Source: Cyanidiococcus yangmingshanensis
Lineage: Eukaryota; Rhodophyta; Bangiophyceae; Cyanidiales; Cyanidiaceae
Direction of reading: 5' to 3'
DNA: 64,000 bases
NCBI GenBank assembly: GCA_013995675.1
Contig: VWRR01000010.1
Coordinates: forward strand, 62,001-126,000
Part shown: positions 47,354-56,397 of the stretch, one piece after another
Layout of the letters: every line of letters starts with the position of its first letter
Position numbering within the stretch: the stretch's first letter is position 1
Notes under the pieces: generated by a model
Told to the model about the DNA's origin: nothing
Seen by the model: only the letters and a program-made list of their open reading frames with translations
Databases searched by the model: none
Translations under genes and position numbers: made by a program

Positions 47354-48416
47354 ATGCAGAGTCTGACGACTTCAAGCGCCTCGTTGTTGCGCTTTATAGA
47401 AAGCGGGCCGCTCGCCGGGGTCACCCCAGCACCTGTATCGCCCAGCCGCCTACGCTCTCGTTGGCGAGCCTGGGGCGACTTTCTCTTCAAGGAACTGGCT
47501 TTGGACGGAACGCAGGAGACAAGTCGTGTTCGGGTCTATCATTTCTATCTACCTATTTTCGCCTGGTGTCTGGATGTTGTGAATCGGCTGCAGCGAGAAC
47601 CGCGAAGGAAGCACCATGGCGTTATTATCGGCAGTGCAATGTCCGCAGGGCGGTGGCAAGACTACGTTGACCACAGCGCTGCAGAAGCTCTTTACGCTCG
47701 AACGACTTGAGTGTGTTTCGCTGAGCATTGATGATTTTTATCTCACCCGCAGGGAGCAGGAAGCGCTCGCGAGAGCCTTTCCCGAAAATCCTCTACTAGA
47801 GTCACGCGGCAATCCTGGCACGCACGACATCTCTCTGGCGTTGCAGACTCTAGACCAGCTGGTTACCGCACCGCGTACCAAGGAGGAATCAACGATAGCG
47901 GTTCCGCGTTACGACAAGTCGGCCTATCAAGGACGAGGTGATCGTGCATCGCCTGAGAGCTGGCAAAGCTACGAAAGACCCGTTGATGTAGTCTTCTTAG
48001 AGGGATGGTGTCTCGGATTTCGACCCCTCGAGCTCCACCATCGATCCGTAGAGATGGATCCGGTGTCGCTGCGAAATCTCATGCAGGTAGATCGATTCCT
48101 CGCTCAGGATTTCTGTCGTCTGTATCCGCTTTTAGATGCGTTTATTGTGATCGCTTTGGACGGCCCAAACTTGGCAGAGTCGCTGCAGACCGTTTATCAA
48201 TGGCGCCTGGAGGCAGAGCAGCAGATGCGAGCAGCCGGACGACCTGCCATGACCGATGAACAAGTCTATGCTTTCGTGGACAAGTTCATGCCTGCATATC
48301 GGGCGTACTTGAGTGATCTGTACTGGAGCCCCCCGCTGACCGGTGATGCGTCTCGTGAGCTCCGAGTCGGTATTGATCGTACCCGAGCGCCGACTCGACG
48401 ATTTCCATGGTCCTAG
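47354..48416 (+). CDS. GLYK: D-glycerate 3-kinase, frame-split
   Basis: GLYK makes 3-phosphoglycerate from glycerate, the last photorespiratory step, normally in the plastid. The N-terminal part matches plant GLYK: SLLRFIESGPLAGVTPAPVS, then YHFYLPIFAWCLDVV. The P-loop PQGGGKTTLTTAL, then LSIDDFYLTRREQEALA, SRGNPGTHDISLALQTLDQL, VPRYDKSAYQGRGDRASPES, VVFLEGWCLGF and QWRLEAEQQMRAAGRPAMTD follow. The frame changes just before the P-loop: omitting one base near 47639 joins HHGVIIGSA to CPQGGGKTT, close to the family sequence ISAPQGCGKTT. The open frame reaches back to 46919 without an ATG, so 47354 is the first in-frame ATG and also the start of family similarity. A transit peptide could lie upstream in another frame or exon. 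Confidence 0.85.
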
Positions 48417-49633
48417 CTGCATCTTTGATGTTGTTTTTGCGGATGGCTGTTGCCTTGGCAGAGCATTGATTTGACCAGAACACAGCGCTGGATGAATTGT
48501 CGAGCTCGCGCTGCGAATCTAGCGCAAGTATGATCGTAAGCGGTCGCGTTCGTCGCCCGTCCTAGTGCAACTCATGCTTCCAGTACTCGGAACGAGGAAT
48601 TGGTTTGATCGATCCTGCAACGGAGACGCAAAACGTGCAATCCCAGCGCCGTGCATTCAATACCGAGCGCGTTGGCTGGAAAAAGAACGTGGTGAATCGG
48701 TTCTTGGCTTGACAATGCGTCCTTGGCTGATCAGAGACAGACCATGGGAAGCGGGCTCGTCCCTAAACGATGACGCTGGTGCGTTCGACCACATGAATAT
48801 GTTTTTCCAGCGCATAGCGGGTTTCGACCAGCGGATGGAGGTGTTTCTCGTCTGCTTGGAAGCGCCTCATCTGCTGTCCATAAGAGACGATCATCGCGAC
48901 CAAGTTCGACGGATCTGCTCGAGGCGAAGTCAACACGGGTGTGCAATAAACAGCATACAAACCTGGTACTCTATGCGAACTGGAGACTCTGGCCCAACCA
49001 GGACACCCAGGTCGGGCGAATAACCGCCATCGTAGGATGAATGGCGAGCGGTCGTGCAATCCCAAGCGGATCGACCACGCTGTTCTATCATTTGCGGAGG
49101 ACGTGTACGCTGCAACGCCGGGCGATGAACGTTACTGTGAATTTCAGCGCCCGCCTCAGATGATCCGAAGCATACACAGCCATGCGATGCGAGAACGTCT
49201 ATGAAGCGACATCCGCGAGGCATGCGGTGAAAACAGGCATCCATCGTTTTTATAGCTTCTGGCGCTTTCATACAGACTGCCTTGCTTTGCGTTCAGTCCA
49301 GCACATCAGTCAATATCGACGCAATCGTGCGTTTGCGTTCCAGAGACAATCAGGATCGATCAAGCCAATGATCGGTTCTCAGTCCATCCATTCGTTCAAA
49401 TACTACAAAAGGTTAGTATTCATGTTCAAGAGCACAGCGAAGCATCATACCGACCCAGCCGCCTCGGCATTGGAGCCGTCGCGATCTTGAGGATTGTGAA
49501 AAACCCCAAGATCGTAACGGCCCATCTTCATGCGTGAGGGTGACGGGGCCTTTTGAACCCGTCCGATGCACAAGCATCCAGTGTGGGTCAGCGATTCCCT
49601 TTGACTCTATCACCATGGCACCATAATGGGGAG
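48417..49633. other. Intergenic region with an orphan intron 3' end
   Basis: No gene was assigned in these 1.2 kb. On the minus strand a perfect TACTAAC (49418-49412) is followed by CTTTTGTAG, ending at 49403, the same signals as in the MPP-alpha intron. Upstream of it a 27-codon frame from an ATG at 49531 (MKMGRYDLGVFHNPQDRDGS...) ends before a GTATGA near 49450, but the intron would then be only about 48 nt. A minus-strand ORF at 48763-49065 is mildly protein-like (NLVAMIVSYGQQMRRFQADE). Confidence 0.35.
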
Positions 49634-49988
49634 CACACCGCCAGAGTAAGCCCCATTCTGTTCACGAGCCGTCTTCAACGAGAGAAGCGCGCACTCGCTC
49701 GTTCCATAGCTGCTCTGATGCAGCGCCCAGCAGGCCAGACAGACCTGGTGCAAGCACCGCGGCTCGGCCGCTGACAAAAACGCTGCCTCCTCGACAAGCG
49801 ACGTTCTGCAGCACGCAGCATCCTGGACCTGACTGTGACGTCAGACATCGCAGTTAAGTCACAGAACGAGCGTGCTCAGAGACGCCCCGCTTCCACTTAC
49901 CACGGAAACTCTCTGACCCAGTGTCCGGGGACTTTCACCCAGAGCCAAGCGCGGCCTCGGCAGGACGAACCCGCTCACCGGCAGCGTG
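49634..49988 (-). ncRNA. RMRP: RNase MRP RNA
   Basis: RNase MRP RNA is the RNA core of the nucleolar enzyme that cuts pre-rRNA. On the minus strand the CR-I region GGGTGAAAGTCCCCGGAC (49940-49923) is nearly identical to the human MRP sequence. It is followed, as in MRP but not P RNA, by the CAGAGAG motif (GARAR type, 49915-49909). The CR-V region ACAGAATGGGGCTTAC lies at 49661-49646. CR-I and CR-V form the P4 helix: AAG-U-CCCC pairs with GGGG-CUU, keeping the universal bulged U. The outermost strands CACGCTGCCGG (49988-49978) and CTGGCGGTGTG (49644-49634) pair over 11 positions with three or four G-U pairs, giving a P1 helix and the ends used here. At about 355 nt it fits known MRP RNAs. Exact termini are inferred. 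Confidence 0.85.
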
Positions 49989-50739
49989 GTCACCAAACCG
50001 CACCAAGGCTGTTCAGTGACCGTATGTAACGCTCTGTTACCAAGGAACGCTTAGCAGAGTCTCCCCAACAAGGCGCCATGAGCCGCAACGACTTGGAACA
50101 CTTACTATTCCCACGAGGAAACCTATCGATGCTACGCTAAACAACTCCTAGTACAGCCCATTTCTCCAACGTATCACCAGCATTTCTACCTTCGTACACG
50201 AAATTAAACTAGGTAACCTCCTTCAAGGCACCGAAACAGTTGTCATTGTTGGTTGATCGCGGCATAGACGTCCTTGACGCGCTCCGACACCCAAGGGTGC
50301 GGCTAAGCGCGCGAGCTTGCCCAGCGGCGTCGAGCGATGGATTGTCGGTCGGCGACGGCTCGGCATCGAGGATGGGCCAGTTGTCCCAAGAAAGATAGGT
50401 TTCATAGATAATATCGATCGCCAAGGCACACGGACGCGAGGAGGAACGACAGAACCGAAAGGTTCTCAAATTGATGAGCAAAACGATGATCACCAGACTC
50501 GTTGAAGGCAGGAAGCGGTTCTCGATCGTCCACTTGAATGAACAGCGATACGTAGACTCCAAACGACGAATGAGGGCGTCGAAGCGTCCGCCGTTGGCTG
50601 CCGAAACAACCCAGTACCAATCTTGTCCATAAAAATTTAGTATGTTCTAAGATGATCCAGCACCAGGAGGGTCGACTTTTCGTGACCGATTGAATCACGT
50701 GACATCCTCATTTTTGAAACGCCGCGCCAATCGGCGACG
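49989..50739. other. Divergent intergenic region
   Basis: These 751 bases lie between the MRP RNA 5' end and the MAD3-like start. Minus-strand ORFs (50209-50562, 50402-50698) show a mildly protein-like stretch ending HPWVSERVKDVYAAINQQ in a third frame, but no consistent gene could be built. Confidence 0.3.
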
Positions 50740-53700
50740 ATGCGTTCGAGACAGCGGGCGCGCTCGGCTCGGGCCAACACCTTGGTTCGCAGCGGCTCGT
50801 ACACTCGAAAGCGAATGCAGCCAACTTGGGAACTCGTCAAGGAGAATGTACAACCTTTGAAAAGTGGACGCTCTATGGAAAGACTTGAGTCAGTCTTGAG
50901 TGGATCTCTTGAGGGCCAACGGTGGAGCGACGGTAACTCGGAGGCGCCTCGTGCTGGGGCGCCAGGTCGGCCGCGCGCTGCATTGTCGAGCTCGTCACCA
51001 AACAAGGTCTGTAATCAGCGCGGTACTTCCATCGACGAGACCTGCTCCCGAGAGGTAAGCCGTTCATTGGGTTCTTCTCATCTGGAAAGTACGCACAAGT
51101 TTGAGAGCGGACGTAGCGCAACCACTCGAGCGGCTCCGACGATCGCTTTGGACGGGTCGCATGCTCAGTCCAGCGCCCCTGCCACATCATCCAAGACTGC
51201 TATTCAAGCCACGATCGATTGGTGGGAAGAGCGAATCGCACGTGCTGTGGAGGAAGTACCAACCGATCCTCTGGGCGTCTGGATAGCATACATCCGCTGG
51301 CGACAGGAGGCGTTTCCAAGTGGCGGCTTGCGAGCGCAACTCTCTGGCCTCATGGATCGGGCGTTGCGAAGCTTTGTGCAGGCCGAAGCGAGCCCCCTGA
51401 TGGAGCGTTACGTCGAGCAATACCGGAATGATCCGCGCTACGTACGTCTCTGGGTACAGTACGCAGACATGTGTCCGGACCCAACCGAGATCTTTCTGTA
51501 CATGCGAGCGCAGGATATCGCTCAGGGTTTGGCCCTTTTTTATGAGGCTTTCGCTTCCGTTCTTGAAGCGAAACATCAGTTCGCGATGGCTGATCGCTGT
51601 TACGCTGAAGGTATTGAACGCGGGGCGATTCCCTTAAGCCGCCTTGCTCGACGACACGAAGAATTCCAGGCTCGAATGATCCGCCGACTAGAGCGACAGC
51701 AACGAACTCAAAATCGGTCTGAGTCACAACGAAGCGAATATTCCAGTGGACGCGAGGCGACTCGTGCCCAAGCAACGCCACAGAGTGGCATGCGTCAGCA
51801 AAGCCAAGGAGAACAAGCCGATCCGCTCGCGCTTGGCGTTCGACCCGCGCTCGCGACGATTCGGGACAGTAGTGCTCCGCAACGAGCCACACAGGAAACA
51901 AATCGCAGAATCTCAGGTCTAGAGAGAACATCGGGCCAATTACGTTCCAGTGATCTCTCCACGGCACGAGAGATGACCCCGGGGCATTTCGAAGAGAATA
52001 GGCCTCCGATGCATCGAGCGCATGATCGCCTCTCTGCTCAGCAGCATCGTTCTGGCTTTACGGTTCATGCGGAAGATACGGTTCATTCAGAGCTGCTTGC
52101 CGATGCTTCAGCCGCAGTTTTGCCAGTGAAGCCCCATGAAAGTGGATTCTCTGCATCAGCGCTTCGGTTTCCAACCATGATCGAGGAACGGCATGAGAAT
52201 CGTGGACGCATCCAACCGTGGAATCAAGTTCGTCTGCCTCAAGATGATGGAACCCGAGTGTGTCGCCAACGCCCACTTGTTGGTGCGCTGCCCGACCCGC
52301 ACCGGGTCCGCTCTCTCCCATTCGAGGTCTATGTCGAGGAAGAACGTGATGCTGGAGAGGATCAAGTGCCGAACTCGGAGCTCGCCCGCTTGCCTGCTCT
52401 CGAGGATGCTCGCAATTTTTCGACGTGTTCGCCCGCGTTGCCCTCACTAGGCAGCACGGAGCAACGGCACTCGGTCGTTACTGATGATCATGGCGTGATA
52501 AGCTGCCCGCGGAGGCCGCGTAGCACCACTGCTGCAGGTGATCAGGTAGAGCAGCCCCAGTCTGCTGGCCATGGCGCTGATGCTCTGACCAAACGACCCG
52601 AATCGCTCGGTTTGGGGAGCAGACAAACAAATCTGGATACCTGTCAGAATGAGCCCCCGTTTCAAGACAATCTTCCAGAGACGCCGTGCTCGTCGTCCTC
52701 CTCCAAGTCGCCTGGACCAATGGAACTTGGTTCAGCTGAGCGGCAAGCCCATGCGGTGTCCCCAACTGTTCATACCCGGCTGGCGCTGGCAGATATCGAG
52801 TCCATGTTTAATTCGCCCATGCCTTTTGAAAGGGAGACGGAATCGACACCAGAGACATCATCTCAACGCGGTGCTCTTGTGCGAAGCGCTACGACTCGTG
52901 ATGCCCATCTGCCGGGTGACGAACCTGAACAGGCGACGGATGCAGTGAGCCCGTCTGTCCTGCGTAAGCGTGTTGCCAAATCACCGATAGGAACCCAGTC
53001 CTCAACGTCATCGGATTCAAGTTGGTCGTCGGTCGATGAGGCGCTCTCCGACAAGGAGAACTGTGCAAATGGACGAACTCGGTCGGAGGCTGCTCTTTTA
53101 CAGCCGCCTCAGAGGCCTACAGATTCAGCCGCAGCTGTATTGGCTGAAAGGCCGCAGAGTCCGCTCAAAGAGTCTGACTATATCATTGTCGACGAGTGCG
53201 CGGAATACGAAGAGGGTGTGCAGGTCGAAAGCCAAGCAGATAGCGGACAATGCGCCGGAAACACAGATACATCGACGGCGAGCGGCATAGCGAAAGCGCT
53301 TGTGGGCACGGTTTTTCCGTCAGTAGAGACGCCCCTGAGGATTGCCGAGGAAGGCTGTGACTCCAGAACAGCTCGGGTCGACGGGCCAGCCCCAGCACAA
53401 GAACTTGATTCGTCTTCGCGGATGACCATGTGGACGAATGGAGGCAAAAGCGTGCGAGCTCCGCAGCAGGCCGAGAAAAGTCCCCCCATTTGTTCCGAGA
53501 CTTGTTCAGAGGCGCTACCTTGCCATTCGGTTTCTCAACGTGAAGAGGCGTTTGCGTCTCGGGGCTTGTCTGCGAGCCCAGATCATTCCAGTGTACTCCA
53601 TTCGAGCGGCATGTCGACGGCGAGCACCCGTGCAGCGACTGCGACTGCCGATACTGGGCATGACGCGTCGTCTGCCGAGCGAGTGAGACCATCCATGGAG

Positions 53701-56397
53701 GCGCGGTTGTCGCCACAGCCTGCTTGTAACAATGGGTCAGGCTGTTCGGTGTCGCATCGTGCGTCCGCAGACCTGACTGGAGACTCGTTGCAACACGACG
53801 CTCTCAGTGAATGCGTACAGGAAGAAAGCGGATCAAACAAAGTCGCTGCCTTAGAGCAGGAACAGTTTGTTTTTCCTGCTCTGGACGCGTCTCCAGCTGC
53901 AACGCGCCTCTTCCAAAAGGATTCGACACCGTTCACTGCAGACTTGTCGAGTCGATTTCAGCCGCACTTGACGACACCGGAACGCGACGCGTTCTGGAAC
54001 GAGATGGAAGAGAGCACAACCTCTCATGCCTCTTTACTCCATCCGCAGGATTTCGTCGATGAATCCGTCTCAATGAATGCATGGTATCTCGATATCGGAG
54101 CTGATTCTCCGCCAGCAGCCACACTGGACGCCTCTCTGACGTTAACGCCCGCCACAGAGCGGCACTCGGCACTGTCGAGCGGCCCTGATCGCTCGCCAGA
54201 ACCGTTCGAAACAAGGCATCTGGCACCGGTGGCCAAGGAGCATTTCCGCAGCGTCCATCCAGAACGAACCGTTGATCGGGATGTGCAGCTGGGTGGCGAG
54301 CAACTCGGGAGCGTCGGCGCACATGATGATACCCAGACAGCCTCGAGCCAGACCCCAAAGCGGGCAACCTCGAATGACCCTACAGAACAAGGATCTGTTA
54401 CCGACCATGAAACGACTGCAACGCTGAGTGCGCTGCATCGCCAGCGCGCACTTGACGCTCCTGAGCGCGCTACGCGAACGACAGAAGTGGCCGTGATCGC
54501 GCGAGCGACCCCGGGAACCGTCTCCACATCATCGGGGTCTGCGACCATGCAAGCAGGCGAAGCCTCCCTGAACTGGGACTCGTGGCATATCCAGCTGTCA
54601 TCGGTGGCTCATTCGACGCCGTTGAGTCCCATCCCGGAAGAGTATGAATGCGGCCATCAGACAAACGTTTCATTCAGTGATGAATGCGGCCCAGATGCTG
54701 GTGCGAACGCGCAGCCGGCAACTCCACCTGAATCGTTATCAGTCTCCCTGTTGCTGCAAGAGGAGGGCGTGCAGGGAGCACCAGTGGCCACAGCAGCGAT
54801 ATCTCGCAACAAACAAGCTGGAACGAGTGTGGACGTACCACAAACTAGCCGTACAAGAGCAGCCATCGAGTCGTCGTCGTCGTCATTCGCTTGCTCACCG
54901 ACACCAGCAACAGGCTCCTGTACGGACTCGCCTACTCGGAGACCGATATTGCGTCCATTCACCCTAATGCTGCGACAGCGCCTGCTCGGTTGGCTCCGCG
55001 AACAAGTCCACCAATGTGCCCCTGGTGCGTTTCACACGCTCGAGACTACGCCAGATCTCCAGAAACAGGGCTTGTGTCGTGTTCGCTCGACGGGTCTCGA
55101 ACCGACCCAAGACTTTTGGTTCGTGCAGAGCGTGCTGAGCGTCAGCAGCAGTAGCGTTTGTGGCCCCAGCGACATGAATGGCAGCTGCGGCAGCATCGCA
55201 GAACAGGCCACCTACTACCTTGTCGAGCGCTCATCGACCCATGATCATAGAGCAAGACGCCGATGCAGTCAGACACCGCCTGCTCGTCCGAAGGGCACTC
55301 GACCTGATCATGGATATCGCTCTTCTCGACATAGCACTCGGTATGATGGGGCTCGCAACTCGTTCTCGGGTAACGCGATCGTATCTCGTCGGCGAACAGG
55401 GCCTGAAGTCCTCAAAGTACAGCCGGCTGCCAATGCACTCTCCGAGTTTGTCTTGTTGCGACGTCTCTGGCAGCGAGTGCAACAGCAAGACTCGCCGATA
55501 CACGCGCGGATGGTGACCAGTCTGCCGCGTGTCCAAGCCCTCTACGAAGCGACAGACACCCAGACATCGTATCTGTTCTTTCGCCAGCTGCCGAGTTGGG
55601 GAACCTTGGCCGATCTCCTCAGCCTGGTTCGTGTCCCGGGCTATATTGATCGCACTCGTTTCCAGTTGCCGTCGAGCCCGACTGGACGGTCCCACAGCCG
55701 CGGTCTCGATCCCGTATTCGTTGCCTTTGTCGCCCGAGAGCTGCTTCGGGTACTTGGTTGGGTTCACGGACAAGCGATCCTACACTGGCATGTTCGTCCG
55801 GAGAGTATCTGGCTCGTTCCGGGTCTTGCTGACGACCACCAGCCCTGTATTGTGCTCGCCGACTGGCAGCAAGCGCTCGACTTGACATTACTCGCGGAGC
55901 TTGAAGCTGTGGTCCAGCAACCCCAGAGCACATACGTCTGTCGTGGTGGTTGGGTTCCCAGTCCGTATCGCTGTCCGTCGATGCAGCAACACCAGCCCTG
56001 GGCGTTTGACGTGGACCTCTACGCGGTCGCGTATACGCTCTGGAGCCTTTTGGGTCACCAACGACGACCTCCTGTTACGTCGATGCACTCGCCGGACAAG
56101 CCAAACGACTCGAAAATAAGTTTACGATTCGGCTCAGCAGAAGATCGTTCACCAACAGCTTGGATTGAACCAGTCGTCTCGACGCTGACGGCTTGTCGCC
56201 CGACAAGCACGATGCATAGCCAGAAAACCTGCGAAGAGCTCTGCGAGAATATTCTCGATCCGTTCTGTAACCGCTACAGACAGCGAATACAGGATCGAGC
56301 TCGAGCGTACGCTTGGATACTGGATGCCTCTCGCGACCGAACAGTTGCTCGTTCGACGCTAGGGACGCCCTCTCGGTCACGTCGAACGTCCTTTTAA
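50740..56397 (+). CDS. MAD3: MAD3/BUBR1-like spindle checkpoint protein with pseudokinase domain
   Basis: This 1,885-residue protein carries the hallmarks of MAD3/BUBR1, the APC/C-Cdc20 inhibitor of the mitotic checkpoint complex. Residues 29-40 read [12 protein letters not shown], nearly the first KEN box of human BUBR1. Residues 150-310 are the Mad3/BUB1 TPR domain: [58 protein letters not shown] and [11 protein letters not shown]. A second KEN box is at 772-774 (SDKENC). A long disordered middle follows. From about 1565 there is a BUB1-type kinase fold, but the catalytic loop reads [13 protein letters not shown] (Asp to His, Asn to Ser), and the DFG region reads [10 protein letters not shown], matching the DLGQSID of BUB1 without a DFG Gly. 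It should be catalytically inactive, as in vertebrate BUBR1. The ORF is uninterrupted. Confidence 0.88.
   Translation: [1885 protein letters not shown]

Follow-up and report, generated by a model that had tools for sequence, protein, structure and literature searches.

Which RNA is encoded on the minus strand around positions 49634 to 49988 of a 64,000-nucleotide (nt) stretch of contig VWRR01000010.1 from the red alga Cyanidiococcus yangmingshanensis (hereafter the window), where does it begin and end, and which polymerase makes it? An initial annotation of this DNA had proposed the RNA of RNase MRP, a eukaryotic enzyme of ribosome maturation, with ends at 49988 and 49634. We consider it very probable that the locus is the nuclear gene, and the only copy found, for the RNase MRP RNA of this cyanidialean alga, with an RNA of about 441 nt comprising a 15-pair P1, P2, an apparently enlarged P3, P4, and P19, together with a substrate domain of the MRP type that carries GAGAG.

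Identity of the locus

The Rfam model RF00030 (RNase_MRP) matches the minus strand from 50062 to 49634 with 60.5 bits (E 2e-14), above its gathering score of 50, and the alignment spans model positions 1-266 of 266. It is the sole Rfam family above threshold within the window and the best-matching model of its clan at the locus (one lower-scoring clan match was omitted, its score not reported). The genome searched (12,072,675 bases, 20 contigs) returned a single RF00030 match, with 24 of 93 candidates scored, and a DNA search of it for a second copy of the gene found none. Weak matches to mir-3804, mir-1003, SNORD73, snR40, and SNORD35 all fell short of the respective gathering score and were regarded as chance. 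The initial annotation had placed the RNA on the minus strand in a stretch without protein genes, and both points agree with these results; the interval falls between open reading frames (ORFs) at 47616-48416 and 50740-56397. The gene and its conserved elements are as follows.

49627-50067, minus strand: RNase MRP RNA gene, predicted RNA of about 441 nt; RF00030 match at 49634-50062 plus an extension of P1, from which the ends are predicted
49923-49936, minus strand: CR-I, GAAAGTCCCCGGAC (in RNA letters GAAAGUCCCCGGAC), the 5' strand of P4 with U49931 bulged; from model alignment and pattern search
49909-49913, minus strand: GAGAG, fitting the MRP-specific 5'-GARAR-3' element; from model alignment and sequence
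49646-49661, minus strand: CR-V, ACAGAATGGGGCTTAC (in RNA letters ACAGAAUGGGGCUUAC), the 3' strand of P4; from model alignment and pattern search

CR-I, GAGAG, and CR-V were thus recovered on the strand first proposed for them (49936-49923, 49913-49909, and 49661-49646), and the P4 helix with its bulged U could be read from the sequence as seven pairs with U49931 bulged. With up to two mismatches allowed, the CR-I pattern had one match and the 14-base CR-V pattern ARAATGGGGCTTAY likewise one, both exact; shuffled sequences gave means of 0.51 and 0.61 matches, respectively, which are rates at the two-mismatch tolerance and not exact-match rates. We place the weight on the joint covariance-model match. 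The 5'-GARAR-3' element has been described for MRP RNA (PMC7351766) and is called unique to MRP in one account (PMC3737539). Relatives were also sought with a combined CR-I and GAGAGT pattern, which had no matches in viral_contigs and three in genome_contigs; none of the three had an Rfam match above threshold, and they were taken as chance and not as related MRP loci.

RNase P, whose RNA is modeled by RF00009, has a catalytic domain described as closely similar to that of RNase MRP (PMC7351766). That the locus encodes instead the nuclear RNase P RNA, or a single RNA serving both enzymes, we judge very unlikely: MRP is the best clan model here, GARAR is present, and the genome encodes an NYN ribonuclease with a sub-threshold match to PRORP, an enzyme that red algae are said to encode (PMC4264200). 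The covariance-model comparison suggested with the initial annotation came out in favor of MRP. No match to RNaseP_nuc (RF00009) at E <= 10 was found in the genome; as scoring covered 15 of 668 candidates and none of 14 control genomes gave a match above the cut-off, this is weak proof of absence.

Ends and secondary structure

The helices assigned to the RNA, all on the minus strand, are listed below.

50052-50067, minus strand: P1 5' strand, UGGGGAGAC-U-CUGCUA, forming 15 pairs; a U.U mismatch interrupts the helix and G49634 is bulged
49627-49643, minus strand: P1 3' strand, UGGCGGUGUGCUCCCCA, pairing with 50052-50067
50044-50049, minus strand: P2 5' strand, CGUUCC, in six Watson-Crick pairs with 49705-49700 (probability 0.67-0.69); aligned as P2 by the model
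49700-49705, minus strand: P2 3' strand, GGAACG; from model alignment and pairing
50031-50036, minus strand: P3 proximal stem, 5' strand CAGAGC, in six Watson-Crick pairs with 49945-49940
49940-49945, minus strand: P3 proximal stem, 3' strand GCUCUG; from model alignment and local fold
50021-50028, minus strand: P3 internal loop UACAUACG, its letters identical to the Rfam consensus
49988-50021, minus strand: P3 distal hairpin 1, with an 11-bp outer stem; from local fold (probability 0.98-1.0)
49950-49986, minus strand: predicted extra P3 hairpin 2; from local fold
49706-49908, minus strand: substrate (specificity) domain, expanded and with little resemblance to the model
49664-49698, minus strand: P19 hairpin with a GCGAGU/GCUCGU stem of six pairs, two of them G-U (probability 0.60-0.69)

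The ends at 49988 and 49634 were not confirmed by comparison with the model. Restricted to 49630-49995, RF00030 scores 39.9 bits, below the gathering score, and its match begins at 49962 rather than 49988; the sequence 5' of 49995 contributes +20.6 bits, and P2, the P3 stem, and the longer P1 all extend in that direction. Outside the model match, GGGGAG (50066-50061) pairs with CUCCCC (49633-49628), lengthening P1 to 15 pairs. We chose the longer RNA because of the 20.6-bit gain and the P3 loop sequence. Its predicted ends lie near 50067 and 49627, some 80 bases further 5' than first proposed for the 5' end, and the placement of that end at 49988 with an 11-pair P1 is probably wrong.

Since P4 crosses P2 as a pseudoknot, folds were computed both free and with CR-I and CR-V blocked, on four stretches of 443 to 601 nt that take in the 5' part, giving eight minimum-energy folds. 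Of the best folds made with these two elements blocked and no pairs forced, 4/4 contain the long P1, P2, and P19 in full; the outer seven P1 pairs occur in all eight folds and all 15 in the four blocked ones. The pair probability of the long P1 in the blocked whole-molecule ensemble is 0.68-1.0, and the values listed above for P2 and P19 come from that ensemble too.

An RNA ending at 49988 and 49634 could be closed by the 11-position P1 of the initial annotation, and this helix is not without merit: all 11 pairs can form (three of them G-U) at -19.2 kcal/mol, or -25.3 with neighbours, folding 49988-49634 alone yields 9 or 11 of them, and a structure with this helix and P19 forced lies within 0.9 kcal/mol of the more stable canonical helix set. 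Once the 5' part was included the helix was not recovered: 0 of the 11 pairs appear in each of the eight minimum-energy folds and their mean probability with CR-I and CR-V blocked is 0.17 (range 0.10-0.18), against 0.68-1.0 for the long P1. The model does not use the 11-pair helix, which also omits P2 and the P3 stem, and the strength of the best duplex in that GC-rich stretch is equalled in 162 of 2000 shuffles. Most of its 5' strand (49988-49978) is covered by the second predicted P3 hairpin, with the remainder at the junction, and a fold forced to contain it along with P19 still forms the outer seven pairs of the long P1. We therefore regard an RNA with these ends as improbable, and prefer the longer molecule with the 15-pair P1.

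For the 5' part of the longer molecule, dinucleotide shuffles of 49946-50110 contained P2, P3, and a perfect UACAUACG loop in order in none of 200,000 cases, and in 9 when one loop mismatch was allowed. The loop sequence carries this statistic, because the P2 and P3 strands in order without the loop occur in 3091 of 50,000 shuffles.

Several results weigh against the longer structure. The frequency of those helix strands in shuffles is one, and the shuffle criteria were chosen post hoc, after the model alignment was known. The free folds hold only the outer seven P1 pairs (4/4), with inner P1, P2, and P19 in none, and the proximal P3 stem is found in 0/8 folds, its probability in the whole-molecule ensemble being 0.0. 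A fold forced to contain the canonical helices is 2.8 kcal/mol less stable than the unforced one (-187.3 vs. -190.1), and the canonical set is just 0.9 kcal/mol better than a forced 11-pair P1 with P19 (-187.3 vs. -186.4). Duplex energies for P1 fail to separate the rivals, at -24.1 kcal/mol for the long helix (equally strong in 53 of 2000 shuffles) and -25.3 for the shorter one (162 of 2000).

P3 is the weak point of the structural model. Its stem strands and loop sequence are present and its distal part folds as two hairpins; the proximal stem is stable locally (probability 0.95-0.99 when folded alone) and missing from whole-molecule folds. In the stretch that the RF00030 alignment hides, the distal region has 70 nt here where the model has 20 positions, and the modeled P3 is apparently enlarged and two-armed. 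In yeast, the P3 region binds Pop6/Pop7. The substrate domain is likewise expanded, with approximately 49904-49761 treated as an insertion in the RF00030 alignment and the rest aligned with low posterior probability. Within this domain, 49798-49888 folds into a long hairpin whose roughly 38 pairs are broken by small interruptions.

As compared with the MRP RNA of RF00030, the alga shares CR-I, CR-V, P4 with its bulged U, P1, P2, the P3 loop sequence, GAGAG, and P19, and differs in the enlarged, apparently two-armed P3 and the expanded substrate domain; human MRP RNA is given as 267 nt (PMC7277114), against about 441 nt here. A red algal MRP RNA has already been published; the MRP gene of this alga was not found in the open-licence literature on RNase MRP together with Cyanidioschyzon, Galdieria, or red algae. 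The result corrects the MRP RNA model in a small red algal genome, for a gene that protein annotation is unable to reveal, in a species reported to be transformable (PMC13353863).

Signals for transcription

We infer that the gene is transcribed, and the surrounding sequence was compared with that of transfer RNA (tRNA) genes as a yardstick for RNA polymerase III (Pol III), namely the 16 tRNA matches in the genome (63 of 292 candidates scored). U6 small nuclear RNA, a further potential Pol III yardstick, was not found in the genome, and control genomes were likewise without a match. Two T runs at the MRP gene bear on the comparison.

49776-49780, minus strand: run of five T (T5) within the RNA, at which Pol III might terminate
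49499-49503, minus strand: TTTTT, the first run of four or more T (T4+) downstream of the gene; it begins 124 nt from the predicted 3' end at 49627

A T4+ run starts no more than 20 nt downstream in 15/16 tRNA matches (window background 0.047). Upstream, TTTATA occurs within 60 nt in 11/16, within 100 nt in 14/16, and within 200 nt in 15/16 (backgrounds 0.003, 0.005, and 0.013); in 11/16 it lies 33-60 nt upstream and is often followed by AATTT, in agreement with what is described for tRNA genes of Cyanidioschyzon merolae (PMC3978253). At the MRP gene, no TTTATA was found within 400 nt upstream of 50069, and no T4+ run downstream before 49503. The locus thus differs from the RF00030 MRP RNA in being without Pol III-like signals of the local tRNA-gene kind. 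A short inverted repeat, CGATCTTG/CAAGATCG (49482-49489 and 49507-49514), was seen by eye, with the first downstream T5 run in its loop.

These surroundings, so different from those of the tRNA genes, might also suggest a dead copy of the MRP RNA gene. Such a pseudogene is scarcely credible, as the locus is the only copy found in the genome, CR-I, GAGAG, and CR-V are intact, and the core helices are able to form.

For a functional gene, the internal T5 (49780-49776) precedes the P2 3' strand, P19, and CR-V in the RNA; if it stops Pol III, a Pol III RNA would be truncated. Such runs are fairly common by composition, with 0.25 expected in 443 nt, and none of the 16 tRNA matches contains one. A single match, partial (L030), has an internal T4, and T4 may therefore not always stop Pol III. 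The MRP RNA may yet derive from a precursor made by Pol III that carries a long trailer. As the gene is without an upstream TTTATA and an adjacent T4+ run and has an internal T5, it may instead be transcribed by RNA polymerase II (Pol II), and our preferred reading of these signals is that Pol II would make the MRP RNA, followed by 3' trimming.

Pol III is described as the polymerase of human RMRP, and Pol II as that of yeast NME1 (PMC7277114). Saccharomyces cerevisiae NME1 is also an RNase MRP RNA, and the signals here, read from sequence only, suggest the same polymerase in the alga. We tentatively propose, as a possibility rather than a probability, that in Cyanidiales Pol II makes the MRP RNA, in contrast to human RMRP with its Pol III, that this permits an internal T5 at which Pol III would stop, and that the protein-binding domain in P3 is forked. 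If the Pol II reading is true, the polymerase of MRP RNA genes differs in more than one eukaryotic branch.

Protein partners, RNase P, and neighboring genes

Genes matching five protein families shared by RNase P and RNase MRP are present in the genome. Matches above the curated cut-off were found for POP1_N, Rpp29, and Rpp30, together with two for Rpp14/Pop5 and two for Alba, which may or may not be Rpp20/Rpp25. By homology, the MRP RNA would assemble with Pop1, Rpp29, Rpp30, and Pop5/Rpp14, possibly joined by proteins of the Alba type, and the assembled RNase MRP would cut precursor ribosomal RNA.

Two of the ORFs examined lie head to head, 199 bp apart. One (C1:113169-114275, minus strand) matches RMP1 at 23.4 bits (cut-off 27) and NEPRO_N at 18 bits (cut-off 24.9), both below cut-off; the other (C1:114475-114870, plus strand) matches Rpp14/Pop5 at 29.7 bits, above the cut-off of 23, and Pop8 at 23.5 bits, below the cut-off of 27.2. 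The pair is a candidate for an MRP-specific subunit encoded beside a shared one. In human cells, NEPRO is reported to be a subunit specific to MRP and structurally like yeast Rmp1 (PMC12819141).

The NYN ribonuclease is encoded by an ORF of 328 amino acids on C14 (L002:775-1761), with 66.8 bits to the Zc3h12a family and 23 bits to PRORP (cut-off 39.1); judged by these matches, it is a possible protein-only RNase P. An intact MRP RNA in a genome where no nuclear RNase P RNA was detected would make it possible to test how MRP and such a protein-only enzyme, if present, share their tasks.

The MRP gene is flanked by two protein-coding ORFs.

50740-56397, plus strand: Mad3/BUB1 ORF of 1885 amino acids, with a Mad3/BUB1 region at 108.3 bits; transcribed away from the MRP gene
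47616-48416: D-glycerate 3-kinase-like ORF, named from the closest protein among the matches listed (84% identical); no Pfam match

Among the matches listed for the kinase-like ORF, the two closest show 84% and 60% identity, and the best 120 of 557 include the red algae Galdieria sulphuraria and Porphyridium purpureum, along with green algae, land plants, and oomycetes.
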